IMG/VR virus record: IMGVR_UViG_3300003859_000001
Location: 1 to 48,534 of that record
Length of the DNA stretch: 48,534 nt
Direction: 5' to 3' (one strand)
From: a virus
A program made the position numbers and the translations under genes. The notes below the pieces were generated by a model that saw nothing but the letters and a program-made list of their open reading frames with translations, ran no database searches and was not told the origin of the DNA. Within the stretch, counting starts at the first letter, position 1, and every line of letters begins with the position of its first letter. Below, piece after piece: positions 9,497 to 40,205 of the stretch.

Positions 9497-9498
9497 TC

Positions 9499-9872: not shown

Positions 9873-9903
9873 GAAACGAGTGGCGGATCATCGATACAGC
9901 CAG

Positions 9904-9933: not shown

Positions 9934-9979
9934 CACCACTAAGAAAGGACAACCAACCAACCCCAAAGGTAATGACCTT

Positions 9980-10873
9980 ATGACTAACAGTAAAATAATC
10001 CCAACACTTGGTTACAATCACTTAGAGATTGGCGCACCTGGAAACATCCAGACACACCGGATTTGTGGAGCACGCACCAGGAACGAAGCAACGGTAAACG
10101 AACTATGCCAGCTGCCTGCTGGTTGGGGAACTGATCACCCAGGTGCCGGACGCTGTAAGCTTCATGGAGGGAGCCGTAACCCTGGAAGGTATAGCGAGTT
10201 ATGGCGTGGACGCATGGCACAGATAGCACGAGCAGCACTGGAGCAGGAAGTAGACAATGATCCGCTTGATCTCCTGGCTGAATTAGAGGTCCAACGTGTG
10301 TTACTTGCCACATTGATTGATCAGCTGCAGCCAGGTGCTGCTCTTCCGGCATTGATGGACCATGATCACCAGGACGATCAGCCAGCTGCGTACAAGATGA
10401 GCCGGACCGAGCAGGTAATAAGAGAAGAGATAGCACGCCCGCCTGTTACGTCACGGAACAAGAAGCGTATGTTAGCAAGTCAAGATAGTATGGGGGGTGA
10501 TGGTGGTGTAGTCAATAAGTCAAGTAAAGGTTCCTCGGTGGATATCCCGCCCACAGAATTTTTAACAAAAGTAAATCCAGATAATCTATCTGTAGTAATC
10601 GACAGTTTTGGTACGTTGAGTGGAGACGAGCGGGAGGCTGTATATTTGCAGTTAGTTGAGCAAGTGCGGATACAGGTGAATGATATTGTGACAACGGTGA
10701 GTAAGATTGTGAGCATGAGGAACCAGACGGCGATAACGAGGAGTGAGGTAGCGTATTTGGTGATGTTGTTGCGGGAGGGGATGGAGAGGTTTGTACCGAA
10801 GGAGAACAGGGAGCCGTATGTTAACTGGATATTGGAGAATATACCAGGGATGGGAGGTAAGGCAGATGGATGA
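9980..10873 (+). CDS. Possible terminase small subunit with HGG zinc motif
   Basis: The protein has 297 residues. Residues 28-64 contain CGARTR, a second Cys (43) and GRCKLHGG (C59, H62), a motif found in phage proteins encoded next to large terminases and often ending in an H-G-G box. The rest is acidic and helical, with a Gly-rich linker near residue 170. Position directly before terL makes a DNA-recognition role in packaging likely. The SD is weak (AAAGGTAATGACCTT). Base composition changes in the 3' third (see the C-poor block), so the C-terminus may have a different origin. No classical small-terminase helix-turn-helix is obvious. Confidence 0.55.
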   Translation: MTNSKIIPTLGYNHLEIGAPGNIQTHRICGARTRNEATVNELCQLPAGWGTDHPGAGRCKLHGGSRNPGRYSELWRGRMAQIARAALEQEVDNDPLDLLAELEVQRVLLATLIDQLQPGAALPALMDHDHQDDQPAAYKMSRTEQVIREEIARPPVTSRNKKRMLASQDSMGGDGGVVNKSSKGSSVDIPPTEFLTKVNPDNLSVVIDSFGTLSGDEREAVYLQLVEQVRIQVNDIVTTVSKIVSMRNQTAITRSEVAYLVMLLREGMERFVPKENREPYVNWILENIPGMGGKADG

Positions 10874-11078
10874 AGAAGAGGAAGATGATAATGAGTTTTT
10901 GTCATTTGAGTTATCGGAGGGGGGAGCGTTGACGATAGGGCAGTTGATTGATTTGATAGAGAGTACGGGGGAAATGTTTGAGGTGTTGGAGTATGCGTGT
11001 GACAGTAAGGTATGTAGGATGAGTGATGCGGGGATCAGGGATCATACGGTGGAGATCAGGTTATCGAGGAAGGGGTAA
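10866..11078 (+). CDS. Small acidic protein, 70 aa
   Basis: The ATG at 10866 overlaps the preceding stop and has GGGAGG upstream. The N-terminus is a run of Glu/Asp (DEEEEDDNE). The rest is helical with two cysteines. It belongs to the C-poor block. Function unknown. Its position suggests a packaging or head-completion helper. Confidence 0.65.
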   Translation: MDEEEEDDNEFLSFELSEGGALTIGQLIDLIESTGEMFEVLEYACDSKVCRMSDAGIRDHTVEIRLSRKG

Positions 11079-11087
11079 TAACGAGCA

Positions 11088-11110
11088 CTCCCCTGAGGGG
11101 GGCAGGGGAG
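11088..11110. repeat. G/C-rich hairpin upstream of terL
   Basis: CTCCCCTG (11088-11095) pairs with CAGGGGAG (11103-11110) around a loop of A and six G. There is no T-tract, so it is not a simple terminator. In the gap just before terL it is a candidate packaging (cos/pac) or RNA-processing site. Confidence 0.55.
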
Positions 11111-11188
11111 CGTCGGAAAGGAGATTACAACTACAGCATTAGATACTGGAGCCAGAGGATATTATAAGATGGTGGAGTAAAAAAGTAA

Positions 11189-12703
11189 ATGGGAAACGTA
11201 CAGTTTGTTAAGGGAAGTTTATTGTCATTGGATGGGGTAGTGCAGCTGGCGAACCAGTTGTATGACAAGACGATAGTAGGGAAGCCTATAGATACGATCA
11301 GGTTCAAGCCACAGCCGAAGCAGGAGAAGTTATTGGATGTGTGTGGTTTATTGGATTGGTATTATGGGGTAGGACCGATCCAGGAGCCAGTGTGTAGTTT
11401 GATAGGGTACGGGGGTGCTGCGTATGGGGCAAAGACTTATGGGGTATTGGGGTTATCAGCTGTAGCAGCGTATGCGTTTCCAGGGGTTCAGATAGCATTT
11501 TTTCGTAGGACGTATACGGAGATTGAGGGAGCGGGTGGGGCAATGCAGACAGCGTATGAGGTATTCAATGGGATAGCAGAGTCAAGGGATAGTGGTAGGA
11601 ACTTTGTATTTCCAAAGAACAGCCAGTTTTTCTTTCAGCACTGTGAGAATGAGGCTGATGTATACAAGTACGAGGGTAAGCAGTTTGATATTCTGTTGTT
11701 GGATGAGGCTACGCATTTGAGTTGGTTTATAGCGGATCGGTTATTGATCAGGAACAGGGTAAGTGGGGATAATGGGATATTGAAGCCATTTTGTATAATG
11801 ACAACGAACCCAGGGAATATTGGACATAACTGGTATATGCAGTTATTTGGGTTGGAGAACTTTACGCAATGGGATGAGAGGGATGAACCGATCCTGGTGA
11901 AGAACCCGAATGGTAGACCAGTGCAGACATATTTTATTCCGGCGTTTATGAAGGATAATGAGATTGGGATGAAGCGTGATCCAGAGTACCAGAAGAGGTT
12001 GGAGCAGGCTGATCCTGATTTAGCTGATGCGTTGATAAAGGGAGACTGGAGCGTATTCTCAGGGCAGGCTTTCAGGCAGTTCGATCCTGCGATCCATATC
12101 TGTGAGCCGTTTGATTTGCCGAAACATTTTCCCAGGTGGAGGGCAGTAGATTGGGGAAGTGCGGAGCCGTTCTGTTGTTTGTGGTTTGCTCGTGATCCTG
12201 ATATTGGTAGGGTGTATGTGTATCGGGAAGTGTATATGGCAGGGTTGACGGACAGCCAGCAGGCGCAGTTGATTGTAGCCAACAGCCCGTTTGATGAGAA
12301 TATCAGTATCACGTTTGCTGATCCGAAGTCCTTTTGGGTGGCGAAGAACAGGTACGGGATAACGTATACGAGTGCTGATGAGTATAGGGATCAGGGGGTA
12401 TTGCTATGGGAAGCTGATAATGATAGAATATCAGGGAAGAAAAAGATAGACCAGTCGCTTACCCTTCTCCCCGATGGTAAGCCTGGACTTGTTATATTTC
12501 GTAATTGCGGGAACCTGATTAGAACGCTGCCGAGATTATCACGCAGCCTCGCTAATCCAGAAGATGTCGATAGTAGACAAGAGGACCACCCGTATGACAC
12601 ACTACGTTACGGTTTCACCAATCCGCTGATGTTCTCCAAAAGAGAGAAAAAAGAAAAGAAGGGGCAATCTGATAATCCCTGGATGCACATCGATGGACTA
12701 TAA
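11189..12703 (+). CDS. terL: Terminase large subunit
   Basis: The length of 504 residues is typical. The ATPase has a Walker A-like loop GGAAYGAKT (residues 75-83), Walker B LLLDEA (169-174) and the coupling motif MTTNPG (205-210). The RNase H-like nuclease follows, with Asp in AVDWG (about 321), an ADP motif (about 377-379) and YDTLRYGF near the end. TerL docks on the portal, pumps DNA into the prohead and cuts concatemers. The Walker A loop deviates from the usual G-G-K-S/T ending because Ala precedes the Lys. Up to about 12450 the gene uses mostly G-ending codons (TTG, AGG, GGG, ACG), then switches abruptly to the codon use of the neighbouring genes. The SD is weak (GGTGGAG, about 12 bases away). 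Confidence 0.92.
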   Translation: MGNVQFVKGSLLSLDGVVQLANQLYDKTIVGKPIDTIRFKPQPKQEKLLDVCGLLDWYYGVGPIQEPVCSLIGYGGAAYGAKTYGVLGLSAVAAYAFPGVQIAFFRRTYTEIEGAGGAMQTAYEVFNGIAESRDSGRNFVFPKNSQFFFQHCENEADVYKYEGKQFDILLLDEATHLSWFIADRLLIRNRVSGDNGILKPFCIMTTNPGNIGHNWYMQLFGLENFTQWDERDEPILVKNPNGRPVQTYFIPAFMKDNEIGMKRDPEYQKRLEQADPDLADALIKGDWSVFSGQAFRQFDPAIHICEPFDLPKHFPRWRAVDWGSAEPFCCLWFARDPDIGRVYVYREVYMAGLTDSQQAQLIVANSPFDENISITFADPKSFWVAKNRYGITYTSADEYRDQGVLLWEADNDRISGKKKIDQSLTLLPDGKPGLVIFRNCGNLIRTLPRLSRSLANPEDVDSRQEDHPYDTLRYGFTNPLMFSKREKKEKKGQSDNPWMHIDGL

Positions 12704-12747: not shown

Positions 12748-14529
12748 ATGGCAGATTATGATGTCAAGGCTTTCGAGAGCATTAAAGAACACGTAAGGGA
12801 TATGGAGACAGCTGATGTAAAGCGTAATGATCTGTATGCGAAGATGGATGCGCTCTACTGGATGGTCTGGAAAGAAGAGTCGGATGTCACGAAGCAGATG
12901 CGAAATGTTAAGGTGACACGCTCTCCACTGGCAAGGAACTCTATTATTGGGGCAATGAGGTTGTTGACTGCATCGGACCCTGTTATCGAGGTGCCGAAGG
13001 ATATCAATGATCCATTAGCGGTACAGGAGTCCTCGAAGCTAGAGAAGTGGATGAAAGCAACTTGGTTTGAGTCTGGCAGGGTTTCAGGCGATCCGTTGCA
13101 TTATGACATTTGTAGATCAGCTTTGTTATATTCAGAGGTGGTTATTGCGATCAACTCTACGAAGAGCATGGCTAAACTTTCCACCATTCCGGCAGTGAAA
13201 CGCAGGATGGAGGATATCGCAAGGAGAACACCTTATCTGTTTGAGGTTTGGTCGCCAAAGGGGTGTAATACGGAGAGAGATAACTTTGGTGTGATCGCTT
13301 TCCACAGGAAGATAGTTACGACTGCAGGACATATCGAGGATGTTTACGGTAAGGATGGGGAAGCTGCACTTATCTCGAATACGAATAAAAGGACATACAG
13401 CCGATCCGATCCTGTCACCTTGCATATTTATTATGATCTTCGTGATGTTTGTATTTATCTTGATGGGTGTGACAGGGAAGTGAAGTTTGAAGAGCATGGG
13501 TTGCCTTTCATACCGATTGTGTCACAGACGGTTGAAGGAAGTTCTTTATTCAAGGGAAGCGATTATCCTACCCAGGAACCATTTTTATATACGCTCGATC
13601 AGACCGAACTTGTAGAACGGCAGAACCTGATGCTTACCACGCTCTACACGATGTTCTTCTCTATTGGTTCAAACCCGATGTTTGTAGATTACACGATCAA
13701 TCCAGAGGATGCTCCTGTTGCAAACTTTGATGTGCCAGGAGGCGTTATTCACTACAGGGTTGGTGAGAGGCGAGAGCCGATGGCAAGGCAGGTGATCGAT
13801 CCTACGCTCATGCAAGGTTGGGAGATATCACAGGACCTGGAAGCACAGAGCACGATTTATAAGCAGACATTGGGAGAGCCACTTGGTTCCAATGCTCCTT
13901 ATTCGATGGTGGCTTTACTATCCCAAAGCGGTAGACTGCCACTTATAGCAGCACAGAGAAAGACAGGTTGTGCTATTGCAGAAGCACTGGAGATCGCAGC
14001 GAAATGGGCGAAGCATGACGGCGTAAACACAACGGCTAAATACCAGACGTTATCCGCAGAACTGAGCCCTGCTGATATTCCAGAAGATGTGAATGTGAAA
14101 GTATTCCTTGAGATCGAGATGCCAACGGATAAGCTACAGGCAGCCAATGCAGCGAATATGCTTGCACAAGGCGATAATCCACTGGTATCGAAAGAATGGG
14201 CGAGGCAGTCCGTTCTCAATATTGGTCAATCAGAGGATATGGATCGGGCTATCTGGAACGAGAAGGCAACCGAGATCATGTTCCAGCAATGGATGTACGA
14301 GCAGGCAGCGAAGCTTGCTCAAGCGAAACAGATGGCAATGGAGCCTGGAATGGCTTCTGGTATGCCAGGGATGCAGGGAGGTCAAGCTCCAATGGGTCCA
14401 CCGCCAATGATGCCTGGATCGCCACAGATGGGTACGCCTCCGCAACCGCCATCACCAGAGCAGGTTGAACCGGAAGAACCGATGATGCCAATGCCACCCA
14501 TACAACCACCGATGATGCCGAGAGGTTAA
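12748..14529 (+). CDS. Portal protein
   Basis: The protein has 593 residues and directly follows terL. The order of a helical N-terminus, a central alpha/beta region (residues ~150-330), a conserved-looking helical stem (~390-520) and a Pro/Met/Gly-rich flexible tail (~530-593) fits phage portals. Portals form the 12-subunit ring through which DNA enters and leaves, and which binds TerL and the neck. Identification rests on position, length and general architecture. CTGGAG upstream of the ATG serves as SD. The Pro/Met-rich tail is unusual and may be disordered. Confidence 0.75.
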   Translation: MADYDVKAFESIKEHVRDMETADVKRNDLYAKMDALYWMVWKEESDVTKQMRNVKVTRSPLARNSIIGAMRLLTASDPVIEVPKDINDPLAVQESSKLEKWMKATWFESGRVSGDPLHYDICRSALLYSEVVIAINSTKSMAKLSTIPAVKRRMEDIARRTPYLFEVWSPKGCNTERDNFGVIAFHRKIVTTAGHIEDVYGKDGEAALISNTNKRTYSRSDPVTLHIYYDLRDVCIYLDGCDREVKFEEHGLPFIPIVSQTVEGSSLFKGSDYPTQEPFLYTLDQTELVERQNLMLTTLYTMFFSIGSNPMFVDYTINPEDAPVANFDVPGGVIHYRVGERREPMARQVIDPTLMQGWEISQDLEAQSTIYKQTLGEPLGSNAPYSMVALLSQSGRLPLIAAQRKTGCAIAEALEIAAKWAKHDGVNTTAKYQTLSAELSPADIPEDVNVKVFLEIEMPTDKLQAANAANMLAQGDNPLVSKEWARQSVLNIGQSEDMDRAIWNEKATEIMFQQWMYEQAAKLAQAKQMAMEPGMASGMPGMQGGQAPMGPPPMMPGSPQMGTPPQPPSPEQVEPEEPMMPMPPIQPPMMPRG

Positions 14530-14753: not shown

Positions 14754-15716
14754 ATGCCACCATTAAAATACCGAGGCGTAAGGGCTGTAAAAAGATACAA
14801 GCCTAAGACCCCTGCAACAAGAAGGGCAGTTCCCCAAACCGATGAACGGCAGGAAGCTGTAAGCGCATACAGGCAACGCAATGTCCAGCCAGCTGTATAT
14901 CCACCCTACAAGAGCAAACTAGTCAACCAGGACTTGAACAGGCTGATGATGACTAGCGTAAGTAGGCAGCTTGAGAACAAAAGTCCATACGATAATTACA
15001 ATGCACAGAGGGTCGAATACGGCAAGGAACAACAGAGACGGCAATCTCCGGCTTATTGGGCTGAGAAAGAGAACAGGGCTACGCCCTGGTACTACAAGGA
15101 GATACCAAGTCCACAACGATTATGGAACAAGCTGATGTGGTATTCGGCGGGTGGTGACAGACCTCCAGGGATGGGCGAGTTATACAGGTATCCGAGGGAA
15201 CCACAGACATACTACCCATATTTCAATCCATATATGCCACCAGGATCAAATGCGAACCTTGATGTACGCAACACTGCAGTGCAGGAATACTTGCAGAGAT
15301 ACAGTGCGAATAATTTCAGAGGACCAACGAGGGTGAATTACACTCCCGTAGCAGGAGTTGACGAGGCTGGCAAACCCAAGTTCTTGAAGCAACAAGGTAA
15401 GAGCGGTCCGAATATACCCAAGACTACGGGGGTTCTTGAAGAGAAGCCTTACAAGGAACCGCCTGTAACTGAGTATGGTGGTGGAGGTGGAGGTGGTGGA
15501 TATTACCCTGGTGGAGGTGGTGGAGGAACCGATTATGGTTATGCGGGAAGCCCATTTGCAGAATACCAGAAGGGTTACACATCCAGACCATACGAGCCGA
15601 ATTATGTAAGACCAGCTTTCCGATCACCAGGAACTGGAGCATCGAATTATTACAACAATCCACAGACGGTTTATGGAGCACGATGGCAGCAACTGCTGAC
15701 CAGCTGGAGGATTTAG
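14754..15716 (+). CDS. Hypothetical Tyr/Pro/Gly-rich protein, 320 aa
   Basis: Low-complexity protein rich in Tyr, Pro, Arg and Gly, with two glycine runs near residue 240-260. The N-terminus (basic, then DERQEAV-x3-R-x-R-x-V-x-P) resembles the N-terminus of the giant protein that follows (DERQEAIQEYKGRGIKP), so the two share an N-terminal module. It may be a disordered virion component or internal protein. GGGAG upstream of the ATG. Confidence 0.7.
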   Translation: MPPLKYRGVRAVKRYKPKTPATRRAVPQTDERQEAVSAYRQRNVQPAVYPPYKSKLVNQDLNRLMMTSVSRQLENKSPYDNYNAQRVEYGKEQQRRQSPAYWAEKENRATPWYYKEIPSPQRLWNKLMWYSAGGDRPPGMGELYRYPREPQTYYPYFNPYMPPGSNANLDVRNTAVQEYLQRYSANNFRGPTRVNYTPVAGVDEAGKPKFLKQQGKSGPNIPKTTGVLEEKPYKEPPVTEYGGGGGGGGYYPGGGGGGTDYGYAGSPFAEYQKGYTSRPYEPNYVRPAFRSPGTGASNYYNNPQTVYGARWQQLLTSWRI

Positions 15717-15717: not shown

Positions 15718-15849
15718 ATGCCATTCAAATCAAAAAAACAAATGCGGTACTTAGCCTGGAAGAAGCCCGAAGTATTCAAGAGGTGGAAAAGAAAGTACGG
15801 TATCCCGAAGAAGTTCAGGAAGAAGAGCAATGGCAGTAAAGGTAAGTAA
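15718..15849 (+). CDS. Small basic phage protein, 43 aa
   Basis: Starts one base after the preceding stop. The sequence (MPFKSKKQMRYLAWKKPE then KRWKRKYGIP) resembles a very short basic protein type found in many phages, beginning M-P-F-K-S and ending with W-x-x-x-Y-G. More than a third of the residues are Lys or Arg. It overlaps the start of the giant gene by 20 bases. Likely DNA- or head-associated, function unproven. Confidence 0.65.
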   Translation: MPFKSKKQMRYLAWKKPEVFKRWKRKYGIPKKFRKKSNGSKGK

Positions 15850-18800
15850 ATACAAGCGTCCTGTAGCTGTAAGACAACCTGTTGTCCAGAACGTGGTTGG
15901 ACCAGCACGCAGGCAACCGTTTAGGAATTACAGGAAACCCGCTCCAGCCATACCGGACGAGAGGCAGGAGGCGATACAAGAATATAAGGGCAGGGGGATA
16001 AAGCCAGTAAGGACAGCACCTAAACCGTCAACAATACCGCCTCCAGTATCAACACCCGCTCCGGTTCAGACAACTGCACCAGTCACAAGCCCTATGCCAG
16101 TACCTGCTGGACCAGGGGCTGTAGCTCCGTCTCCAGGTGAGGTTATCGGTCAGACTACGATACCTACCTCGACTATATCTGGTATTCCTATTCCACAGGT
16201 GCAGTCCAGTTATGGCTATGGTCCAGACCTTGTAGACTTTGTTCGTAAGATTACTGGTATCCAGATGATTGACACGCAGTCTGGAACCGAGATCAAGGGA
16301 TGGAAACCCAGGAAATCGGGTGATCCTATCGACTGGTATATGCCTGGATACAATGCGGAGAACAACCCATTTGAGTTCAACCCTGGATACGAGCCATCGT
16401 TTTGGGAGGACCCACGCAACGTTGCAATGATCTATCATGGCGCTATTGGATTGAACAATGTCCAGTGGGCTGATAAAGACTTCCTGCAGGCTGCCTATGA
16501 TTATTTCAAGTTAGCGAATGGTAATGACGACTGGACGAGTTGGAAGTTCCTTGCTTCAGGCGATCCGGCAAGACAGTTCCTGCAGTCTGGAGAACCACCT
16601 CCGCTCGATTATGTTCTGACACCAAAGCAGTATCAGAATTATCTACTCAATGCGCTCTATGCTACACCCATCGAAGAGCGTGACCCTGAACTGATATTGA
16701 GACTTACACCAGAATACAGGTTCGCACTTGACTATGAAAAATATGTGAAGATGCACCAGGAATGGGCGTTAGCGAATACACCCGACTGGATGGCATTAGC
16801 CAAGTCATTGACGACTGATCCGGCAATTACTGGTGCGTTACAGATGGGTGCTCTTGGTGCGTTTACTCTGAACCCGATGATCGCTTTATACATGGGTGGG
16901 TTTGGTTATTTGACAGGTGCAGCATCGAAGATCGAGGATCCCCTATTGCGTAACACTGCCAGTGGTGCAGCCCTGGGAGGTATGTTTGGTGGAGTATTAG
17001 GACCCTGGGGTATCGTAGGTGGAGCAGCTTTAGGCGGGTTGGCTGGTGGCGCTACTAACTTCTTATCCAGGGGTACAGAATGGGGTGGTGTCACAGGATG
17101 GAGCCTTGCTGATCAGGTGATGAAACTGATGGATATGCCAGCAGAGGGTATTGAAGCACTGATCGGCACTGGTATGCTTTTGAACTGGGCTAGTAAAGAA
17201 CCCAACCTGTATGGATCGCCAGAGGAGTTGTTGGGCGATCTTAGGTCCACGCTGCAGGCAGGCAGGTTGGCTTATACCGTAGGAGCAGTGCCAGATACCA
17301 CAGCACCATCAGGACGTAACTGGATAAACTTATTCCCTTATCTTGGTTACTTGTGGGCTTCTGCCACAGGAGACAAGGAAGAATTAGAGAAGATAAGGTT
17401 CGCAAAGCCTGGAGAGACGTTCAATCTTACAGGTGATAATCCGTTCCCTTATGCAGTGGGTGCAACTCAAGCAGCCATGATGAACGCAGCCAGGAAACGT
17501 ATTCTGGCAGGTGAGAACGTTGATCAGATATTACTTGAGTACCAGTACCTTTATGGACTATCGGGATTATCCGCAGAACTTATTGGACATATTGTGCTCG
17601 ATCCGCTGAATATAATGCCAAGAGCGGAATCAGCTGTGATACGTGGTGTCGGTCAAGCCACCGGACAACGTGCGATTGTAATGGGATGGTCTGGTAGACA
17701 GGGAATGGGTTTATTTGGTGGTTTGAAGAACTACAAGGCTCTCGTGGAAAGCGGTATGGTCGGTGTGTTCACTGAGCCATTGACGGCAATCGAGAAGAGT
17801 ATAGCTGGTTTGACAGGAAGCAATATCTCAAAGGCTCTCGATCCAGACTACAAGTACGTGAAGCTCAAGGGCGAAGGGAGTTCCCTGCAATTCGCTAATC
17901 CGATACTTCGTGCAGTAAACGATCTGATAAGTCTCACGCCAGAGTCAAAGGTGGAAGCTATTCATGTTCGTGGTATCGATGCTTACAATGGTTTGGCAGA
18001 TAGATTTAGGGGTGATGTAGACAAACTGTTGGATGCTGTTACTACGATTGGGCGTTCACCAGCAGAAGCTGCACTAAAATTCAGCACAGCTGCCTATGGC
18101 AGTCCGATAACTTATTCCCTGCAAAGGGCTATGAAGGCGTTTGTGCCATTATTGGAAGATGCAATACTAGATTATCACACAGGAGACACGGAGAGAACGC
18201 TGTTATTCAGGATCGCTGATGTGACTGGAGAAAAACCAGCTGATATTCTCAAGCGCATGGGTGATGAGAACGGAGTTCAGGGAGTGTTCGATCAGTTCGC
18301 AGTCAAGCTAACACAAAGCGATCATCCACTCGCTCCAGAGTTGTTGAGGACTATCAACACAGGAGAACTCAAGGTAGACGATTTTGCAAAGATAGGTGAG
18401 AAATTCATTGGGGATGATGCGATACCCTGGCACCCTGATGAACTCATGGTGAAGATGAGCGGTCAGTTCAACAAGAGCACAGCGGATTGGGCGATCAAAA
18501 CCTATGGTGCGAAGGAAACATCATTCGGTTTCAGGTTCGCCAACACGCTCAAGAAGGCTCAGTCGGCTTTGCTATTATCTTGGAACCCTGGATATTTCGT
18601 AAATAACACGGTCAATAACGCTGTCTCCCGTTGGGCTACACACATTTGGGGATACGCTACCAACCCGCACAGAGAGAAGTTCTATATGCGATTTGGGCGT
18701 AGGATGGCTCGTGAACGTGCAGGACTTGGGGCAGCTGCTACTGGTGTTGATATGGACTTCGTTGAAGGTCTAAAGCCAGGAGAAGCTGGAGCTAATATCG

Positions 18801-21800
18801 GCAAGCCAATGGGCGAGTTTATATCTCCAGAGGGCGAGAGAGAACTACGCAAGATTATCAACATGAATAAGGGTGCTCTTGGTCAGATAAACAGGGTACT
18901 AGATTTTGTCAATAAGCTTGGTCCGGCTACGACTGGCTCCCGTAAAGTAGAAGTATGGGAAAGTCAGAACGCTATGTACTTTGCAGCTAGACAGGCATGG
19001 CAAGCCTGGGAGAGTGGAAAACTGATCTCCCAATTACCACCCAACCTACGCAATGATATTATCCGCATGGTAGGTCCTGATGCTCCTGAGTGGTTCAGGA
19101 ACGTGCTACGCAACTCGATGAACCCCGATGAAGTTAATGCTGCACTCCTGGAGACGGCACCGAGATACGATGTGAACTCAGTCGTTGACAAGGTTGTTGC
19201 CGAAATGAATAAGGGTGTCACCGATCCGAAAAAGCTGATCAACTCAGATGCTGTGAGAGATACTCTTACCAGAGGACAGATACTTGATAACCTGAAAGCC
19301 GATCTTGAGGGAGTAACTACAGCTGCAGGTGTCAGGGATGCGTTTGCGAAGGCAAGGCAGACGATCAATGATCAAGCGGATCAGATGAACTTGAACGATC
19401 TGACTACCAGGGCAAATGAAGTTTGGGCTATGGTTGCCTCCAGCAAGTGGCTTGAACTGTTCAATATATCCAACGAAAAGAACCTGAAAGTATCAGAGTT
19501 TGAAGCGAACCATTATGTAGAGTTAGATGCTGTTCGAGCTAGAGACGATCAGATGCGTGTTGATGGTTACAGCGACAAGATGCTTTCACGTAATTGGGAT
19601 GAGGGGATGAACCAAGTCAATCGGGAGCGCCAACGTATTCGTAAATTCGAGTTGGCAGCTGATGATGGAATATACAAGGGGATGGGTCTTGGTGACGAAA
19701 AGGTAAATCTATACAACGATAAGGTCAGGGAGAGTTATACGCTTTGGGATAAGTTTTGGGAATATTCCAATAGGGAGAGACAGGCTTTCTTCAAGAAGCG
19801 CAAGGGTATGACCAGAGAAGAAAGTCAGGCAGCTTTCACTGAATGGCGTGATAAGACAAACAAGAAATACCAGCAGACCAAACGCCTTATTTATGGTTAT
19901 GAGACAAAGAACGCAGATGGAACTATCGTACACCGTCCAGGTGTAGTGGATAAAGCTAACAAGATATTCCTTGACGCAGTAAAGAACACATACGGCAAGG
20001 ACGCACACACAGTGGCAAAAGCATGGATCGAGGATACGGCTCGAATAAACCTTGAACTCGATGCCATGATGAAAGAGCAACGTGACTTGATAGATACCCT
20101 GCCACAGAACCAGAAGAGAAGGGAATGGCAGCTATTTCTGGACAACGAGTATCTTCCCAAGATGCGTGATCTTTATAACAACAACTCACAGAAGATGGTT
20201 GAGTTGTATACCAAAATAACCGGACAGAAACCGCCACCTCCACGAGAGGTTCCTGTCGTTGAGATTGGTAGAACACCGCCTCCAGGTGAACCTCCACCAC
20301 CTGGGGGTGGTCCTACACCGCCACCTGGGGGTGGACCAGTACCTACAGCACCTCCGGCACCAACGGGAGGTGGACAACCCGCTCCGACTGCACCTCCGGC
20401 ACCTACAGCACCACCAGCACCTACAACTGCACCAACACCAAAGCCAGCACCAGAAGCACCGAAGGTAGAGATAGACTACGAGCCTGCTCCACCACCGGAT
20501 ATTGAGTACGAGCCACAAGGACAGGCAGAGGGAGCACCGAGAAAATCTTCTGACGTTATCAGGGAAGATATCATCAAGACGACCAACGATATCGATCCTG
20601 AGTTCTTGCGTGGCAAGAAGATGGCAGAAGGCGTTCAGCTAACAAGGGAGGCAGCTGGTGTACAAAGCAATATCATCAAGCGCATAAACAACGCTGGTGG
20701 CATAACAGGTGTGAGTACCTTCAAAGACCTTATTGCGAATTGGGATACGGTCAAACCTGAGTACGAGCGTATCATGCGTACTCGTGCGGAGAACAAAAAG
20801 AAGGCTGCAGTTGCCAGGGAGAAGGCTCCTGCCTTCGCTCTAAAAGACCTGCCAATAGCCAGACGACTGGATTATGTCGAGGATGTTTCCTTGATGGTGA
20901 AGGCTGTTGGGAATATTTCTGCACCAGGGAAGCGTGGGATACTGATCGAAACACCAGAAGGAATTACAGCAGTATCTTCCGGCTATCCGCAGTGGTGGGG
21001 AAAGTATGGTTGGGGAAGTGCTGAATACTTCAAGATGGAGGGTGGCAAGAGGGTCAAGGTTACTGGTATAGAAGCATTTGAGCGAGCAACAACTGACCTG
21101 ATAAGGAATGGCACAGAGACACTCAAGCCCAATGGGGAGCCTTATGCCATATTCAACAGGCTACGCCATACGATTGAAGATTACGGATCGGTAAAACTAT
21201 ATACCGATGCAGAAGTTAGACCATCTGATAAGAACGCAGATTACCATCCGATTTACAGGAAATCATCTGAGGCAGCCATTGCACAGAGGGATGAGTACAA
21301 CCAGCCATTGGTTGACTTCTACAAGGCAGGTGAATTGTGGAAGGCAGGCAATCAGGATGATGCAGCGAGGCTGATCGAAGAAGTCCTAGACGCACAGCCA
21401 GAAATACTTGGCAGGCTGAACGATGCTGATATGGCTGAAATATTTGGAAGTGTCGATGAGGCAGGTAAGGCTTTCAACCATGAGACACAACAGGTTGCTA
21501 AAGATGCTGGAATTGTTGTTGATGTTGGTAATCTCGAAGGAAAACCATTAACTCTTGATGAATACTTGGCAAGCGATATCAGAAGGACAAGAGAGAGTTC
21601 TGTATTATCTGATGTCGAAAGCGCAGTAAATAGACTTGGCAGAGACAAACTGGAACAGATCGGTTTTATTAAAGCTGGAGAAACTATTCAACAATGGTTG
21701 AAGAGGGAAGCACAACAGACGGCGACCTGGGAAAGAGGTGTTGGTAAGGCTCGTAACCGCAGAGTAGGACAGACTGCAATAGAGAAATGGAGCAAACCAC

Positions 21801-24800
21801 TCGATATATTCAAGGATGCCGTTGGAGAAAAAGCACTGAGGAAATCAGTGTTGGAATATATACGGGGGGATAAAAACGGCTGGCTTCTGAAAGGCGAGGG
21901 ATTTGACAATCCAGAAATACATACTCCAGCAAAGTATGAGCAGATGAAAGTTACAACTCCAGAAGTCGCAGATGCACTCAAGGCAGCCAACGAAGAGATA
22001 GCCACTCTAAAGGCAGAAGTAGAACGCAGGGTACAGATGGCAGGCTACGATAAACTCACTGGATTGCCTATATACAGCGAACATCCAAGAGCAGCAATAG
22101 CAGGCGGTTTTGCCTTTATAGATATGGCAGGATTGAAGTATCTAAATGATCAACACGGTCATGCAGCTGGTGATGCACTTCTGTTTGCGGTAGCAGACAT
22201 TGCCCGTAAAAATAATATTCCGATATACAGGGTCGGCACATCTGGTGATGAGTTTGTGATTGCAGTCGAATCGCCCGATATCGCTGCCACTTATGCGTCA
22301 TTCTTGAATAGAGAATTGAAACAATCGCCCGTTCTGGTACAGAAACCAGACGGAAGCTACACCATGATCTATGGTTATGGAATTAGATATGGAATTGGAG
22401 ATACTTATGCTAAAGCAGATCACTCCCAAAACATTGTCAGAACAGAGTTCTACGCCAACCACCCCGAAACCCAAAGATACCTCGCAGACCATCCAGGCGA
22501 CATCTCCGGTGCCATCACGGTTGCGCGATCCTCGCTATTCCCTGGGTCTAAGGTCGTGGACATCCCTGCCGGAAGGATCGAAGGTGATTGGGTATCTCCC
22601 GCGAGACAGCAAAGCGTATCAGAACTTGATGCAGCTAATCAAGGACCAGAACGAGAATACAGGATCGCAGTTGCCAGAGCAGAATACCGAGACAGGTTCC
22701 AAGAGTACGTCAGAACCCAAACCGATCCAGACCAACCAACCCCCTACTCAGGAGAACTCGAACCAGCCCCCGAACAACCAAGAGAAATAAATCCAGGTCC
22801 ACTGTACGATTACCTGAAAGATAAGCCAGGGTTCGTGCAGGAGGATATGGAACGCACCCTGAATAACGCCTTAGAAAGCAGGCTACTCGTATTGAAGGGT
22901 GATGATCCACTACGTTGGGAAGCCTACCAGGAGTTAGCCAGACAATCCGGTTGGGAACTGGATGATTACGAGTTGGGTGCGGATACGGGTGTTTCGAGCG
23001 GGAGGATAAGACGACTTCCAGAAGCAGCCATTGGTGCTGGTAATCTCACAAAAGTAGGTGATATTGCTGGTGATAAATTCCGTGTTTTCTTTTTTGATAG
23101 GCAGGTAGGTAGCGAGTCATACGTCAACCGCCAGGTGTTGGAAAAACTAGACCCAAATAAGAAAAACTGGAGGACTGTTGGCAATCGGATAGAAAAGACT
23201 GCCAACGTAGAACGCATAGAGGATGCTAATGGAAATGTGATATTTAGCAGAGAAGGCAAACCTGGAAAAACGTTAGTTGAAGTATTTACAGATGTTGGCT
23301 TAGAGAACGAGTTGAACCCAATTCAGATGCCATTGGCAGAAGATATTGTGCCTGTGAATAAGATATACACTGGACAAGCGAGTATGTTTTCTGAAAATGC
23401 TTATATCCAGATCGCAGGCTTTAGGCACCCACTAGACACGATTGTTACTATCGATGGTAGGCGAGGGAAGATTACTGGCACAGATGTAGTCGATAAACAA
23501 AGACTTTACAACATCGAGTACGAGGATACTCCAGGCTTTACATCACAGGTTGGCGAGAAGATTGTCGATGCAGCAATGGAATCTGATGCAGTGACAAAGA
23601 TACTCAGGCTCGGCTATGCGATCAGACCAAACGAAATGGATATGATCATCAACGATGAAAAGATCGTTGAGATCGTCTACAAGGTTGGAACAGATGAGGA
23701 GATAGCATACCGTCCTGATTGGAGTAAGGACCCAACTTCTAATGGCAATTACCTGCTAGGGTTTGATCCGCATACTCACGATATTGTTTATATAACTAGC
23801 AGCGGAAAGGTAAAGACAACCAAGACGATTGGTGGTGCTTCACAGGATATCTTCTACCTGAACGGCAGGAAGTATATATTTGTTGAGAGCACATCTGATG
23901 GTGGTGCATTAGCCAAGACTACATCCGGCGTGAATATATCGCTTTCTAAAGAACAGATGGATAAGGCTACAAGAGAAGTACCTGTTCCTCCCGCTCCGGT
24001 TATACCCCCGAAAGGTCCATCAGGCGAAGAACTAGCACCAATGCCTAAGATGCGTAGACTTGAGAATATTCGCCAAGATACGATATGGATACTCGAAGGT
24101 AAAACAAAGTTTGAGGAGTATAAGCCAAAGTCAAGGGAAGCACTTAAAAAATATGTTGATGCAGCTATAAAAGCAGTCGATGAAGGAACGGGAACACCTG
24201 AATATTTGGATTTCTGGCGACCACTCGTAGAGAATTATAAAAGGCAACAGGCAGAACCAGCTGCAGCGGAAGTAGTACCTCCAGCTGCAGGTGGTGCAGG
24301 AGCGGAAGAACCACCTCCACCCCCACCAACCAATATCATTGGAGAGGAACCAGAACCACCTCCACCATTGGGTGGCTCGAATGAAATAGTCGGAGACATT
24401 CCACCAGGGGTAGTGAGTAATATCAACCCTGTGGAGTTCCGTTCTGAGTTGGAAGGCGATCTGTGGAAGAAGTCAACTGAGCCGATGGTAAACGCAATGG
24501 AAGAAAGGCTCACTACAGATGGTCCAACAGAAGGATACAAGATACCAGGAGAATTAATGCCGGAAGTGAATAAGTATCTCAGGCAGGTTTACGGAGATAT
24601 GGAAACGGCAAAAGCATACACAACAGCCTACGCAAACTCGATGCGAGATTATGCGCTCCTGAATTACTCAATGCGTAGGGGCATCGATAATTGGGCGAAT
24701 ATCGTTTATCCATACCAGTTCTGGTACACGCGTACCGCCATGAATTGGGCTATGCGTGCGTTTGACCGTCCAGCTTGGTATGCCAATTATTATCGGTTCC

Positions 24801-26470
24801 GCAAGTTCATGCAGGCAAATAGAGAGGAATATGGTTTCCCATCCAGGCTAAGAAATAAAGTCGGTATCCAGGCACCCTATCTTCCAGACTGGACAAGCGA
24901 CAGGTTCTATACCGATCCACTGAATAACATCTTCCCATTCGAGAACTTTATTACACCGATGGCAGAGTACCAGAGGATGGTAAACGAGAACGAGAGAGAA
25001 GCCGAATATCTCTTGAAGTCCTGGGCTGATGATGGAACGATAACAGATGCAGAGGCAGCTACTGCAGCAAGCTCACATGAGGGCGATCTGTGGAGACAAG
25101 CGACTGAGAGTGTAAAAGCAGAACAGGACTGGTCGCCTCTTGGCTTCATGGATTGGGTGATGTCGCCTGCACTGTATCTCACAATACCCTGGTATCTGGT
25201 TACTGGTAAGACCATGCCAGGTGTATCAGGTGGTGGATCAAGACCTGATATGCCTTTACTTCCACTCACAAGGACTGGCAATGCGATCAAGGCAATCACA
25301 GAGGATAGCCCGCTAGGATCGATTGGTAACTTTGTCGGTACCCTAATGGCAGCACCGGAGAAAACATTCCGAAAGGCTGTAGGGATGAGTGAGTTTGGCG
25401 ATTGGGGTAATTATTATATTGACCGTATGATCTCCAATATGGTTGGCGAAGGATACTGCAGCTTGAGAGACGCAGAACTAGCCATGATAGAGCGTACTGG
25501 TCCAGTCTATGCAGAAGCCGTCAAGCGCACGATGCTTGAGGGCTCGTTCAAAGTACCAGGGGCAATACCTGCTTATGCAGCACTTCACGGCGCAAAGGCA
25601 GAAGAAATGGCATCGGCAGTATTGTTTGGATTTGCACCTGCCAGTTTACTGCCGGCTGCAGAACTCGATGCAAGGCAACTGAAAGACGAATACAATTCAG
25701 CCAGGGATGCTTACAACAAGGGCGATACTGGGGCAATGGATCGGTTCTTTGACGATTATCCTGAATACGAAGCAAGATCCGCGCTATTCTTGGAGCCGGA
25801 ACAACGTCTCAGGCAGTTTATGATCTCAGATATTTGGGAAGCCTGGGGAGATATGGGTAACGTAGAGAAGGAACAGACTGCCATGAGTTTAGGCAGTGAG
25901 TTTGAAGAGTTCTTCCTCGAGGATCAGACCAGGAACTATGATATGGTCAAAGACGAAACGCTTGCGTTCTGGCTACATGAAATGCAGCAGTATGTACCGA
26001 GTACGGTCACTCCAGAGGAAGGTCAGACTTATGAAGATTTCCCGAATGTGCCACCACAGATGCAAGCGGAGGTAGACGCATATAACAAGACACGCAATGC
26101 GAACTTCCCGAACTGGTACGCACTGCAGCAGAACTATTATTCGCTTCCGGCTGGAGAAGAGCGCAAGAACTTTGTCAAGCAATTCCCCGTTTTAGAGGAG
26201 TATTGGGATTGGAACAAAGCATACAAGGAATCACATCCGAATATTGCTAAGTATCAGACCGAGTACGATGCACCGAGGTACGACTATACTTTCATGCAGG
26301 AGTTTACCGATCCACTATATAAATCATTGTTTAGGTATTATGTGAACGAAACACCCTTATCAGCCGGAGCACTAAACGAACTGAATAGGTTATGGATCAA
26401 AAGCGGTAAGCAAGGCGAAACACTAGAAGGCTTTATAAACGAAGTTATAAGACCTTTACTAGCACCATAA
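15830..26470 (+). CDS. Giant multidomain virion-associated protein with a GGDEF-like domain
   Basis: This single 3,546-residue frame takes 22% of the genome and sits between portal and scaffold, where minor head (MuF-type) proteins are usually encoded. Visible modules: basic N-terminus shared with the 320-aa neighbour; Pro-rich linker (~63-105); Gly-rich hydrophobic stretch (~327-414) that could insert in a membrane; a helical region with SWNPGYFVNNTVNNAVSRW (~918-936); charged helices (~1200-1460); long Pro/Ala/Gly linker (~1467-1564); an unassigned region; a coiled coil leading into a GGDEF-like domain (2073-~2200); small beta domains (~2530-2570); a second Pro-rich linker (~2720-2860); and an aromatic helical C-terminus (~2940-3546). 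The cyclase-like domain has DKLTGL (2074-2079), FIDMAGLKYLND (2096-2107), a GHAAGD motif and SGDEF (2138-2142). The architecture fits an internal, DNA-co-ejected polyvalent protein. Function is inference. Confidence 0.8.
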   Translation: MAVKVSKYKRPVAVRQPVVQNVVGPARRQPFRNYRKPAPAIPDERQEAIQEYKGRGIKPVRTAPKPSTIPPPVSTPAPVQTTAPVTSPMPVPAGPGAVAPSPGEVIGQTTIPTSTISGIPIPQVQSSYGYGPDLVDFVRKITGIQMIDTQSGTEIKGWKPRKSGDPIDWYMPGYNAENNPFEFNPGYEPSFWEDPRNVAMIYHGAIGLNNVQWADKDFLQAAYDYFKLANGNDDWTSWKFLASGDPARQFLQSGEPPPLDYVLTPKQYQNYLLNALYATPIEERDPELILRLTPEYRFALDYEKYVKMHQEWALANTPDWMALAKSLTTDPAITGALQMGALGAFTLNPMIALYMGGFGYLTGAASKIEDPLLRNTASGAALGGMFGGVLGPWGIVGGAALGGLAGGATNFLSRGTEWGGVTGWSLADQVMKLMDMPAEGIEALIGTGMLLNWASKEPNLYGSPEELLGDLRSTLQAGRLAYTVGAVPDTTAPSGRNWINLFPYLGYLWASATGDKEELEKIRFAKPGETFNLTGDNPFPYAVGATQAAMMNAARKRILAGENVDQILLEYQYLYGLSGLSAELIGHIVLDPLNIMPRAESAVIRGVGQATGQRAIVMGWSGRQGMGLFGGLKNYKALVESGMVGVFTEPLTAIEKSIAGLTGSNISKALDPDYKYVKLKGEGSSLQFANPILRAVNDLISLTPESKVEAIHVRGIDAYNGLADRFRGDVDKLLDAVTTIGRSPAEAALKFSTAAYGSPITYSLQRAMKAFVPLLEDAILDYHTGDTERTLLFRIADVTGEKPADILKRMGDENGVQGVFDQFAVKLTQSDHPLAPELLRTINTGELKVDDFAKIGEKFIGDDAIPWHPDELMVKMSGQFNKSTADWAIKTYGAKETSFGFRFANTLKKAQSALLLSWNPGYFVNNTVNNAVSRWATHIWGYATNPHREKFYMRFGRRMARERAGLGAAATGVDMDFVEGLKPGEAGANIGKPMGEFISPEGERELRKIINMNKGALGQINRVLDFVNKLGPATTGSRKVEVWESQNAMYFAARQAWQAWESGKLISQLPPNLRNDIIRMVGPDAPEWFRNVLRNSMNPDEVNAALLETAPRYDVNSVVDKVVAEMNKGVTDPKKLINSDAVRDTLTRGQILDNLKADLEGVTTAAGVRDAFAKARQTINDQADQMNLNDLTTRANEVWAMVASSKWLELFNISNEKNLKVSEFEANHYVELDAVRARDDQMRVDGYSDKMLSRNWDEGMNQVNRERQRIRKFELAADDGIYKGMGLGDEKVNLYNDKVRESYTLWDKFWEYSNRERQAFFKKRKGMTREESQAAFTEWRDKTNKKYQQTKRLIYGYETKNADGTIVHRPGVVDKANKIFLDAVKNTYGKDAHTVAKAWIEDTARINLELDAMMKEQRDLIDTLPQNQKRREWQLFLDNEYLPKMRDLYNNNSQKMVELYTKITGQKPPPPREVPVVEIGRTPPPGEPPPPGGGPTPPPGGGPVPTAPPAPTGGGQPAPTAPPAPTAPPAPTTAPTPKPAPEAPKVEIDYEPAPPPDIEYEPQGQAEGAPRKSSDVIREDIIKTTNDIDPEFLRGKKMAEGVQLTREAAGVQSNIIKRINNAGGITGVSTFKDLIANWDTVKPEYERIMRTRAENKKKAAVAREKAPAFALKDLPIARRLDYVEDVSLMVKAVGNISAPGKRGILIETPEGITAVSSGYPQWWGKYGWGSAEYFKMEGGKRVKVTGIEAFERATTDLIRNGTETLKPNGEPYAIFNRLRHTIEDYGSVKLYTDAEVRPSDKNADYHPIYRKSSEAAIAQRDEYNQPLVDFYKAGELWKAGNQDDAARLIEEVLDAQPEILGRLNDADMAEIFGSVDEAGKAFNHETQQVAKDAGIVVDVGNLEGKPLTLDEYLASDIRRTRESSVLSDVESAVNRLGRDKLEQIGFIKAGETIQQWLKREAQQTATWERGVGKARNRRVGQTAIEKWSKPLDIFKDAVGEKALRKSVLEYIRGDKNGWLLKGEGFDNPEIHTPAKYEQMKVTTPEVADALKAANEEIATLKAEVERRVQMAGYDKLTGLPIYSEHPRAAIAGGFAFIDMAGLKYLNDQHGHAAGDALLFAVADIARKNNIPIYRVGTSGDEFVIAVESPDIAATYASFLNRELKQSPVLVQKPDGSYTMIYGYGIRYGIGDTYAKADHSQNIVRTEFYANHPETQRYLADHPGDISGAITVARSSLFPGSKVVDIPAGRIEGDWVSPARQQSVSELDAANQGPEREYRIAVARAEYRDRFQEYVRTQTDPDQPTPYSGELEPAPEQPREINPGPLYDYLKDKPGFVQEDMERTLNNALESRLLVLKGDDPLRWEAYQELARQSGWELDDYELGADTGVSSGRIRRLPEAAIGAGNLTKVGDIAGDKFRVFFFDRQVGSESYVNRQVLEKLDPNKKNWRTVGNRIEKTANVERIEDANGNVIFSREGKPGKTLVEVFTDVGLENELNPIQMPLAEDIVPVNKIYTGQASMFSENAYIQIAGFRHPLDTIVTIDGRRGKITGTDVVDKQRLYNIEYEDTPGFTSQVGEKIVDAAMESDAVTKILRLGYAIRPNEMDMIINDEKIVEIVYKVGTDEEIAYRPDWSKDPTSNGNYLLGFDPHTHDIVYITSSGKVKTTKTIGGASQDIFYLNGRKYIFVESTSDGGALAKTTSGVNISLSKEQMDKATREVPVPPAPVIPPKGPSGEELAPMPKMRRLENIRQDTIWILEGKTKFEEYKPKSREALKKYVDAAIKAVDEGTGTPEYLDFWRPLVENYKRQQAEPAAAEVVPPAAGGAGAEEPPPPPPTNIIGEEPEPPPPLGGSNEIVGDIPPGVVSNINPVEFRSELEGDLWKKSTEPMVNAMEERLTTDGPTEGYKIPGELMPEVNKYLRQVYGDMETAKAYTTAYANSMRDYALLNYSMRRGIDNWANIVYPYQFWYTRTAMNWAMRAFDRPAWYANYYRFRKFMQANREEYGFPSRLRNKVGIQAPYLPDWTSDRFYTDPLNNIFPFENFITPMAEYQRMVNENEREAEYLLKSWADDGTITDAEAATAASSHEGDLWRQATESVKAEQDWSPLGFMDWVMSPALYLTIPWYLVTGKTMPGVSGGGSRPDMPLLPLTRTGNAIKAITEDSPLGSIGNFVGTLMAAPEKTFRKAVGMSEFGDWGNYYIDRMISNMVGEGYCSLRDAELAMIERTGPVYAEAVKRTMLEGSFKVPGAIPAYAALHGAKAEEMASAVLFGFAPASLLPAAELDARQLKDEYNSARDAYNKGDTGAMDRFFDDYPEYEARSALFLEPEQRLRQFMISDIWEAWGDMGNVEKEQTAMSLGSEFEEFFLEDQTRNYDMVKDETLAFWLHEMQQYVPSTVTPEEGQTYEDFPNVPPQMQAEVDAYNKTRNANFPNWYALQQNYYSLPAGEERKNFVKQFPVLEEYWDWNKAYKESHPNIAKYQTEYDAPRYDYTFMQEFTDPLYKSLFRYYVNETPLSAGALNELNRLWIKSGKQGETLEGFINEVIRPLLAP

Positions 26471-26497: not shown

Positions 26498-27187
26498 ATG
26501 TTCGACAAGATAGACAAGACGCAAGAGGGCGCAGGCACTGAGGAAGCACCGAAACCACCTCAACCAGATTATGTAACGTCCGAGAAACTTGCATCAGAAT
26601 TAAAACAGCTAGGCGTACTATTTGAAAAACAATTCAATGCTTTTGTAAAAGCGCAAGACAATTCCAACGAACTACTGCAAGACAGAATAAACAAACGGGT
26701 TTCTGCTCTCGAATCTGCTGCTGAAAAACAAGGTATTACGCTTACCCCAAGTCAAAAGCAACAGATCACGGATCAGGCAACAATTGAAGAAGTGAGTTCT
26801 GTAGCAAAGTCTGGAGGCAAGGCTGATTTCACTGATCGTGGACCAGCTGGTAATACTCCAGAAGTTGATCCAGAACGTGTCAATATTGCTGCGGATACCA
26901 TGCTAAAGCTTTCAGGTGTAGAGTTTGAAGAAGGCGATCCAGAAGTAAAGCTCATCAACGATGCAGCTGAAACTGGAACACCGGAACAGTACCTGGACGC
27001 TTTTCGTGAGGCTATCCGACTAAAGAAAGAACGTCTTGCCAGTGGTGGAAACTCAGAACAACTGAGATCGCCAGTGGGTGGCGCTCCAGGTGCAGCAACC
27101 GGAGTACCAAACACAAACATGATTGCGAATACGATGGATAAAGATGAGTTGTGGTCGCAAGCTAAAAAAGAAGGCAAGATTAAATAA
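26498..27187 (+). CDS. Probable scaffolding protein
   Basis: The protein has 229 residues, is hydrophilic, acidic and mainly helical, with a coiled-coil-like part (about 30-85) and no cysteines. It directly precedes the major capsid gene, the usual place of the scaffold. AAAGGAGG is a strong SD, suggesting high expression, as needed for a scaffold. Scaffolds guide prohead assembly and leave or are degraded before packaging. No protease gene was recognised. Confidence 0.7.
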   Translation: MFDKIDKTQEGAGTEEAPKPPQPDYVTSEKLASELKQLGVLFEKQFNAFVKAQDNSNELLQDRINKRVSALESAAEKQGITLTPSQKQQITDQATIEEVSSVAKSGGKADFTDRGPAGNTPEVDPERVNIAADTMLKLSGVEFEEGDPEVKLINDAAETGTPEQYLDAFREAIRLKKERLASGGNSEQLRSPVGGAPGAATGVPNTNMIANTMDKDELWSQAKKEGKIK

Positions 27188-27232: not shown

Positions 27233-28225
27233 ATGGCTTACACTTTAGCGCAACACGCAAAGTTAGAAGCCAATCCACTAACGAAGTTCGTCCTGGTCAA
27301 TATGTTGCGATACATAAAGGTCATGGAGATACTTCCTTTTCAGAACGTAAACTCTCTCCGCACATCTGCACTTCGATGGCGTGTACTACCTGGAGTAGCC
27401 TTCCGTGATCTGAACAGCGATTACACGGAAGATACATCGGGTGATCTTGAGGAAGTTTGGGAGTCTCTGTATATTCTTGGTGGGTTGGTTAAGTTTGATC
27501 GTGTACTTGAAGATGGTGGTGCCACCATCAAAGACCCCAAGCAATTGCAAATGGAAATGAAGTTGAAGTCGTTGGCATTAACCTGGAACGACTACTATAT
27601 CAACGGCGATCTTGCCACAGACCCTCTTGGTTTCCAGGGTTTGAAGAAACGCATTTCACTAAGTCCAACACGTCAGAAGATATCTGCAGGAAACTCAGAT
27701 TCTGTAGGTCTGAACGTAACGAACTCAGCTGCAAATGTCAACCTCTTCTGGACCAAGATGGAGCAGGCATATCGCTACACAAACACCGGACAGGTCGATG
27801 GTATCTTCTGCAATGAAGATATGCTCCTGGGTTTTGGTCGTTCACTCCGCTATATCAACTCGGCGGGTGGTAACTTCTTGGATGTTACTAAAGATAGCTT
27901 TGATCGTGCAGTCCTGAACTACCAGGGAACTCCCATTATTGATATGGGTTTGAAGAAAGATCAGACTACTGAAATCATGGCGAATGAAGCCGATGGTGCA
28001 GGTTCAGCTGCTGTCGCAGTATCCATTTACTTCGCTGCTTTCAACATGGAGCAAGGTATCGTGGGTGTCCAGAAAGGACCCCTGCAGGTGATACCAGATG
28101 CCAAGAAGGATGTTGCCACTGCAAGCCAGACGCTGATCGAATGGGTGAATGGATTGGCAGGTTTCGGTTCTTATGGTTTAGCACGCTTGTGGAATATTCT
28201 TCCACCTGCCTCGTGGACTTCATAG
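27233..28225 (+). CDS. Major capsid protein
   Basis: The length of 330 residues is typical for a HK97-fold capsid protein without a large delta domain. The N-terminal helix, the long E-loop-like strand segment (about 60-100: DLNSDYTEDTSGDLEEVWES) and the mixed alpha/beta remainder fit the fold. Position after a scaffold-like gene and the strong SD (AGGAG) support the call. No sequence motif is decisive, so the assignment is mainly contextual. Confidence 0.8.
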   Translation: MAYTLAQHAKLEANPLTKFVLVNMLRYIKVMEILPFQNVNSLRTSALRWRVLPGVAFRDLNSDYTEDTSGDLEEVWESLYILGGLVKFDRVLEDGGATIKDPKQLQMEMKLKSLALTWNDYYINGDLATDPLGFQGLKKRISLSPTRQKISAGNSDSVGLNVTNSAANVNLFWTKMEQAYRYTNTGQVDGIFCNEDMLLGFGRSLRYINSAGGNFLDVTKDSFDRAVLNYQGTPIIDMGLKKDQTTEIMANEADGAGSAAVAVSIYFAAFNMEQGIVGVQKGPLQVIPDAKKDVATASQTLIEWVNGLAGFGSYGLARLWNILPPASWTS

Positions 28226-39350: not shown

Positions 39351-40205
39351 ATGACTCAAACACTATTCGATATTACATATAACGTTGCCAAAGAACTTGG
39401 GATCGTGGTCGAAGGCACAGTGACCAATGGAACAACTACCACCACTATTGACACTCTTTTACTTAAAGATAGGTACGAGGACAATTACTTCAATTCCGGT
39501 ACATACTGGCATTTATACGACCTATATAGTTCAGGTGGTCCAACAAATCAGGGGGAATGGGCTAGGATAACTGACTTCGTAAAAAACACAGGAACGATTG
39601 TCCGTAGTGCGCTATCAAGTGCTGCAGATATTGGGGATCGATATGCAATTGCCAATCCAGAATACACGCTCGATACCATGATTATGAATATAAACTCCGC
39701 ACTGAGAGAGATACAGATACCGATAATTGATATTTCTACGGTTGTTACGGACGAGGATAAGACGGAATATACGTTGCCAGACGGAGTTCTCGATCAGAGT
39801 ATTACGGTCTGGATGCAGCGTAGTACAACAACTGATAATAATCTTTGGATCGAATACTTTGATTGGTATGTAGCAGAAACCGAAACGGGGGTGTATAAAA
39901 AGCTTATATTCAGAACTCTTCCTCCCGAACCTTATGCAGTCAAAATAGAATACTGGCAGCCACATCCTGCTCTCTACCTGAGTTACGATAAGTTGGCAGA
40001 GACTATAAGCATTGATAGGATCGCTGTCGATGGAGCATTGAAGTGCCTGCTTTGGAAGAACGCTCAGAAGTCTCAGGTTGATCCGCAGCTGGCTTTGCGT
40101 ATTCAGGAACTCATGGCAAGGTCAAGTCGGCTCCACTCACGGTTTCCAGTGCCAAGACCAGGACCTAAACTCGCTACATACGGTCACACCAACAACTTCG
40201 ATTAG
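39351..40205 (+). CDS. Probable neck/adaptor protein
   Basis: The protein has 284 residues. N-terminal helix with LFDITYNVAKELG, a loop-rich part with DRYEDNYFNSGTYWHL, a central domain ending in EYTLPD, and a conserved-looking C-terminal helix with WKNAQKSQ. This order resembles connector or adaptor proteins joining the portal to a short tail. With no tape measure in the genome this supports a short-tailed particle. The call is tentative. Confidence 0.5.
   Translation: MTQTLFDITYNVAKELGIVVEGTVTNGTTTTTIDTLLLKDRYEDNYFNSGTYWHLYDLYSSGGPTNQGEWARITDFVKNTGTIVRSALSSAADIGDRYAIANPEYTLDTMIMNINSALREIQIPIIDISTVVTDEDKTEYTLPDGVLDQSITVWMQRSTTTDNNLWIEYFDWYVAETETGVYKKLIFRTLPPEPYAVKIEYWQPHPALYLSYDKLAETISIDRIAVDGALKCLLWKNAQKSQVDPQLALRIQELMARSSRLHSRFPVPRPGPKLATYGHTNNFD

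Follow-up and report, generated by a model that had tools for sequence, protein, structure and literature searches.

Delivery into the host was proposed for phage-type polyvalent proteins by Iyer et al. in 2017 (PMC5512222). In the same study, domains of these proteins were suggested to interfere with host nucleotide responses, and GGDEF is already among these domains, for example in a giant prophage protein of Acetonema longum (PMC5512222). In another system, phage N4 ejects its ~3,500-residue virion RNA polymerase (vRNAP) in the form of domains that are loosely linked (PMC12633501). Here we compare with these systems a giant gene from a viral genome in IMG/VR (record IMGVR_UViG_3300003859_000001); the window, i.e. 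the whole stretch of DNA analyzed, is 48,534 nucleotides long.

Since the contig ends form an exact direct terminal repeat of 99 bp and the RecT reading frame runs on through their join, the genome looks complete and closed, with 48,435 unique bp. A single ORF with an ATG start and no internal stops takes 10,641 of these bases (22.0%). A sequence-only reading of this DNA had already noted one gene filling 22% of the genome between portal and scaffold, at the position of a minor head protein. The ORF is confirmed, with the portal recognized by position, size and synteny only, and the assignment of the slot was right: in Paenibacillus phage Unity, which has a related capsid protein, the place between portal and capsid genes is held by a small 'minor capsid protein'. 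The gene and its neighbors are as follows.

11189..12703, plus strand: terminase large subunit (phrog_979, 2.4e-31)
12748..14529, plus strand: portal-like protein (position, size and synteny only)
14754..15716, plus strand: Pro/Gly/Tyr-rich protein of 320 aa, between the portal-like gene and the giant gene
15830..26470, plus strand: giant ORF, 3,546 aa (full-length relatives)
26498..27187, plus strand: scaffold-like protein (position; profile match downstream in 42/45 testable loci)
27233..28225, plus strand: major capsid protein (phrog_212, 1.9e-38)
39351..40205, plus strand: putative adaptor-like protein (syntenic pair with the nozzle/tail-like gene in 24/26 testable loci)
40217..44746, plus strand: putative nozzle/tail-like protein of 1,509 aa (synteny)

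Three small ORFs separate the portal-like gene from the giant gene; a tiny, very basic ORF of 43 residues (MPFKSKKQMRYLAWKKPEVFKRWKR...; 15719-15850) overlaps the start of the latter. Neither Pfam nor PHROGs gave a match for the portal-like protein, and PHROGs gave none for 14 of its homologues; the nozzle/tail-like protein matched nothing in PHROGs or the PDB, and profiles of the portal, adaptor and nozzle proteins found no convincing solved relative. Elsewhere in the window, in a 982-aa protein (36122-39070) that is probably a tail or fiber protein, the head is Gly-rich (PF21722) and repeats of ~20 residues, of the type SDGITVGESKTVE, are numerous, and a methyltransferase-like gene (phrog_6636; 31404-31916) lies within the tail region of the genome.

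Queried with the whole giant protein as a single sequence, the viral contigs gave no close relative. A profile of its C-terminal part, however, recovered 56 loci from viral contigs, which became a set of 49 with a full C-terminal module after removal of duplicates and of five remote loci and addition of three earlier ones. The layout that the sequence-only reading had proposed to look for in metagenomic phages thus recurs at the same locus in 49 further non-redundant viral contigs, as well as in one GenBank phage (MW202608, 'Podoviridae sp. ctptF532', Manatee Spring), where tblastn against phage records placed a protein of 2,156 aa at this slot; four more records had the same length and the same match. 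Scanning bacterial and archaeal genomes with the C-terminal profile yielded no relative, and no description of the family was found in the open-access literature. Giant ORFs with both ends intact measure between 1,890 and 3,757 aa; some of the truncated ones are longer than 4,000 aa. Because full-length relatives number in tens, chance or artefact is excluded as the origin of the ORF. In one relative (L009:925-4632 and 4568-12010), the N-terminal module lies on its own ORF, overlapping a next ORF with the remainder, which is either a natural split of the gene or an assembly frameshift.

Gene order around the relatives was conserved. A portal-like gene lies upstream in 24 of the 25 loci where the flank permits the test; downstream, of 45 testable loci, 42 have a scaffold-like gene and 37 a capsid gene that fits the profile of the window's, and further on the adaptor-like/nozzle-like pair is present in 24 of 26. 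In Unity, the tape measure gene lies downstream of the capsid gene, after the tail-assembly proteins; no Unity-type tail-assembly or tape-measure genes were recognized in the window which, together with the synteny, suggests a short-tailed phage. The sequence-only reading had also remarked that no tape measure is present elsewhere. Indeed, PHROGs recognized none among the 20 other larger window proteins scanned, the tail genes being mostly unannotatable, but its absence is expected of a short-tailed phage and is therefore not independent evidence.

Within the giant protein, the following segments were delimited (all on the plus strand).

16016..16144, plus strand: Pro-rich linker 1, residues 63-105 (composition)
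16382..20257, plus strand: N-terminal conserved module, residues ~185-1476 (profile matches in 34 relatives)
16808..17071, plus strand: glycine-zipper stretch, mostly uncharged, residues 327-414; possible membrane-inserting hairpin
20228..20521, plus strand: Pro-rich linker 2, residues 1467-1564 (composition)
20522..23986, plus strand: variable middle or payload region, residues 1565-2719 (length and Pfam content differ among relatives)
20879..21223, plus strand: small uncharacterized domain, residues 1684-1798 (common to the window, L007 and L008)
22037..22399, plus strand: GGDEF domain, residues ~2070-2190 (PF00990; PDB diguanylate cyclases; family alignment)
23987..24409, plus strand: Pro-rich linker 3, residues 2720-2860 (composition)
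24479..26461, plus strand: C-terminal conserved module, residues 2884-3544 (50-sequence alignment; AlphaFold2 model)

The three Pro-rich linkers, earlier thought to divide the protein into modules, are real and do delimit modules, linkers 2 and 3 coinciding with the limits of the middle. Linker 1 contains an uncharged Pro-rich run at residues 66-103, linker 2 an uncharged run of 50 residues (1488-1537), and residues 2701-2900 have 12 and 19 Pro per 100 aa. On either side of the middle, profiles of the N-module (~185-1476) and C-module (~2884-3544) match across the family, the C-module in all relatives and the N-module in those long enough to contain it, which strongly argues that the two ends form a constant core. 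They are probably ejection or virion parts, a structural role to which conservation and synteny point.

AlphaFold2 models showed a nearly all-helical C-module (pLDDT 83, pTM 0.67; confident) and a mostly helical N-module (residues 185-1300; pLDDT 69, medium confidence). Domain-by-domain structure prediction, suggested with the first reading, thus delivered helical models but no fold match: among solved and viral predicted folds both modules gave helical hits at noise level only, the T7 core protein 9jyy_G (Z 3.1) and tape measures being among them. The lack of a match does not argue for a new fold. For the window's N- and C-modules, neither Pfam nor PHROGs contains a matching model. Across the family, Pfam reported DUF6861 in 3 of 35 N-modules, as well as CsbD, Senescence and others, hits that may be driven by composition. 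LPD38 as the identity of the N-module was not supported, since it came up only below threshold, in one relative, and is absent from the families listed for N-modules.

The Gly-rich stretch at residues 327-414 had been read as able to cross a membrane. It is Gly-rich, nearly charge-free and carries a conserved zipper, with a G-x3-G-x3-G-x3-G pattern at positions 394/398/402/406 where Gly occupies 79-93% of aligned relatives, but it is only moderately hydrophobic (best 19-residue hydropathy mean 1.32). The zipper lends support to the idea of a membrane crossing; given the moderate hydropathy, we put forward membrane insertion of this segment as a suggestion.

Compared to the ends, the middle varies widely: 29-2,068 aa separate the two modules in relatives (median ~630) and ~1,400 aa in the window. 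Four relatives (L020, L024, L033 and L040) have nearly no middle, so that the ends have a role even without cargo. Among 31 middles, Pfam detected ddrB-ParB (PF18763) in 13, ART-PolyVal (PF18760) in 10, GGDEF in four (window included), parts of a strawberry-notch type superfamily-2 helicase in three and LPD1 in one; HExxH metallopeptidase-like motifs occur in at least 10 relatives. The family as a whole thus holds several unrelated enzyme domains, while the window copy lacks both ddrB-ParB and ART-PolyVal and has one recognized enzymatic domain, GGDEF. The earlier description of the protein as a polyvalent effector is supported as to architecture by the ddrB-ParB and ART-PolyVal domains of relatives, but does not apply to the protein as a whole: the ends behave as a conserved core, and only the middle as swappable payload.

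Cargo turns over faster than head or structural genes, since L007, whose capsid protein is 84% identical to that of the window, has a middle of ~245 aa without GGDEF. The two middles share an unnamed domain of ~115 residues (1684-1798; 41% identity), also present in L008, and are otherwise unrelated. Residues 1881-2067 and 2271-2757 of the window middle gave no PDB sequence match at E <0.1. In L039 (L039:3-11711), a giant of >3,900 aa combines a GGDEF-like domain with three copies of an E-I-QSD motif, which suggests repeated related cargo domains.

The GGDEF domain of the window was identified with PF00990 (E=1.2e-7; 32 bits vs a cut-off of 23.8). It contains the motifs DKLTGLP, FID with the metal Asp, LKYLND, AAGD and RVGTSGDEF, and its catalytic motifs align with those of PDB diguanylate cyclases (e.g. 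4yme, 3ign). The signature reads SGDEF, which departs from the strict GG[DE]EF pattern, and two residues more follow the preceding Arg than in canonical cyclases. A single-sequence search of viral contigs with this region returned nothing; phmmer found GGDEF-like domains in the relatives L055, L017, L039 and L027 (weak, E 0.013). The family alignment keeps the metal-binding Asp, the LKYLND Asn, the AAGD Asp (Asn in L039) and DEF.

Alternatively, the domain could have lost its catalytic function and act as an insert with a nucleotide-binding or structural role. The replacement of GGDEF by SGDEF, the two-residue insertion and the RADEF of L017 would fit such a loss. On the other hand, the metal Asp, ND, GD and DEF residues, the DKLTGLP motif and the preceding helix are all retained, the GGDEF motif is intact in L039, L027 and L055, and activity is known for a cyclase that has an AGDEF motif (PMC3974145). 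We regard a dead domain as rather unlikely; it would concern the payload only and is compatible with an ejection protein. The domain resembles a cyclic-dinucleotide synthase and may be catalytically active.

Since about fifty other environmental phages keep the two ends at this locus and exchange the middle for different enzyme domains, the protein is probably packed in the virion and carries enzymes into the bacterium with the DNA. We think it likely that the giant is an ejection protein, polyvalent in type and packaged in the virion, with constant ends and a swappable middle. The constant helical C-module would probably dock inside the capsid near the portal, and the glycine-zipper segment of the constant N-module might enter the membrane of the host. 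Together with the first DNA, the protein would thread its way through portal and tail, its loosely linked domains unfolding and then refolding as beads on a string, such that the payload would reach the cytoplasm ahead of phage gene expression. In the window phage, the GGDEF payload would synthesize a cyclic dinucleotide, in the simplest case c-di-GMP, which may disturb or pre-empt host nucleotide signaling. The ORF, its constant ends and variable middle, the synteny, the GGDEF residues and the glycine zipper were observed; packaging, docking, membrane insertion, translocation, and catalysis and its purpose are what we infer.

Such a cargo could shift c-di-GMP-dependent behavior or interfere with nucleotide-based defense. 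In Panoptes, a cyclase of related fold makes a decoy nucleotide, disturbed by phage countermeasures (PMC12657218), which shows that nucleotide pools matter during infection; a tie to the giant protein is speculation. More tentatively, and with somewhat less than even confidence, we propose that in a widespread environmental phage lineage the giant is a standard cargo chassis, its membrane and capsid ends constant and its enzyme middle exchangeable, and that the window phage injects a preformed cyclic-dinucleotide synthase, which would produce a nucleotide signal in the host ahead of phage transcription.

Alternatively, the protein could be an intracellular polyprotein that is not packaged, expressed late along with the head genes and having its role, in head assembly or counter-defense, in the producing cell. 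Support for packaging is circumstantial, gene position being the sole argument for it, and the metallopeptidase-like motif of many relatives could process a polyprotein. However, ejected proteins are usually encoded in the late head operon, the ends are kept even without cargo and the glycine zipper is conserved; we consider this alternative improbable. A tail tape measure or other tail component, long and helical with membrane-active segments, setting tail length and exiting first, is very unlikely. This is the largest gene, its product is mostly helical, and tape measures, which also bear hydrophobic and enzymatic segments, are among the best, non-significant structural hits of the core models. 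Yet the gene sits before the capsid gene, with portal and scaffold on its two sides, and not after tail tube and chaperone genes; in Unity, the tape measure is downstream, past tail-assembly proteins. No tape measure family matched in Pfam or PHROGs, and a middle that ranges over 29-2,068 aa and holds effector domains is unfit for a ruler. Least probable is a giant virion RNA polymerase or replication enzyme of the N4 type, whose delivery would mainly serve early phage transcription: like N4 gp50 the protein has ~3,500 aa, a beads-on-a-string build and likely delivery, but no polymerase family matched at E<=1 in Pfam or PHROGs and the relatives' middles contain unrelated enzymes, although a highly diverged polymerase might lie concealed in a core module.

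With an ejection protein as the preferred reading, the family would offer about fifty comparable natural constructs that keep the delivery parts and change the cargo. One could then ask what segments a giant phage protein requires for its packaging and translocation, and which enzymes phages deliver first. A delivered GGDEF enzyme, if true, would be a direct test of the proposal of Iyer et al. on injected nucleotide-signal enzymes.

Among known systems, gp50 of N4 (Schitoviridae) is likewise a modular single chain of ~3,500 residues, and head packing and threading would be expected of both; unlike in gp50, a polymerase domain was not detected, cargo is exchanged among relatives and no sequence relation was found. 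With the ejection (internal virion) proteins of T7 and P22 the giant shares helical structure, putative membrane segments and a presumed head-packed function, but it has no sequence or convincing fold match to them and is encoded by one giant gene that precedes the capsid gene. The slot between portal and capsid genes and the effector fusions recall MuF minor head proteins with C-terminal effectors, although Pfam found no MuF domain in the giant. Compared to GGDEF diguanylate cyclases (PDB 4yme, 3ign), the catalytic motifs align, whereas the SGDEF signature, the two-residue insertion and the location inside a phage giant protein differ. The likeness to polyvalent proteins lies in a very large, multidomain protein of a portal-terminase phage, encoded among head genes (the portal by position only), and in the ART-PolyVal, ddrB-ParB, LPD1, helicase and HExxH metallopeptidase-like segments of relatives. 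Unlike polyvalent proteins, the window copy has one recognized effector, with LPD38 below threshold, and the family is defined by two long conserved end modules.
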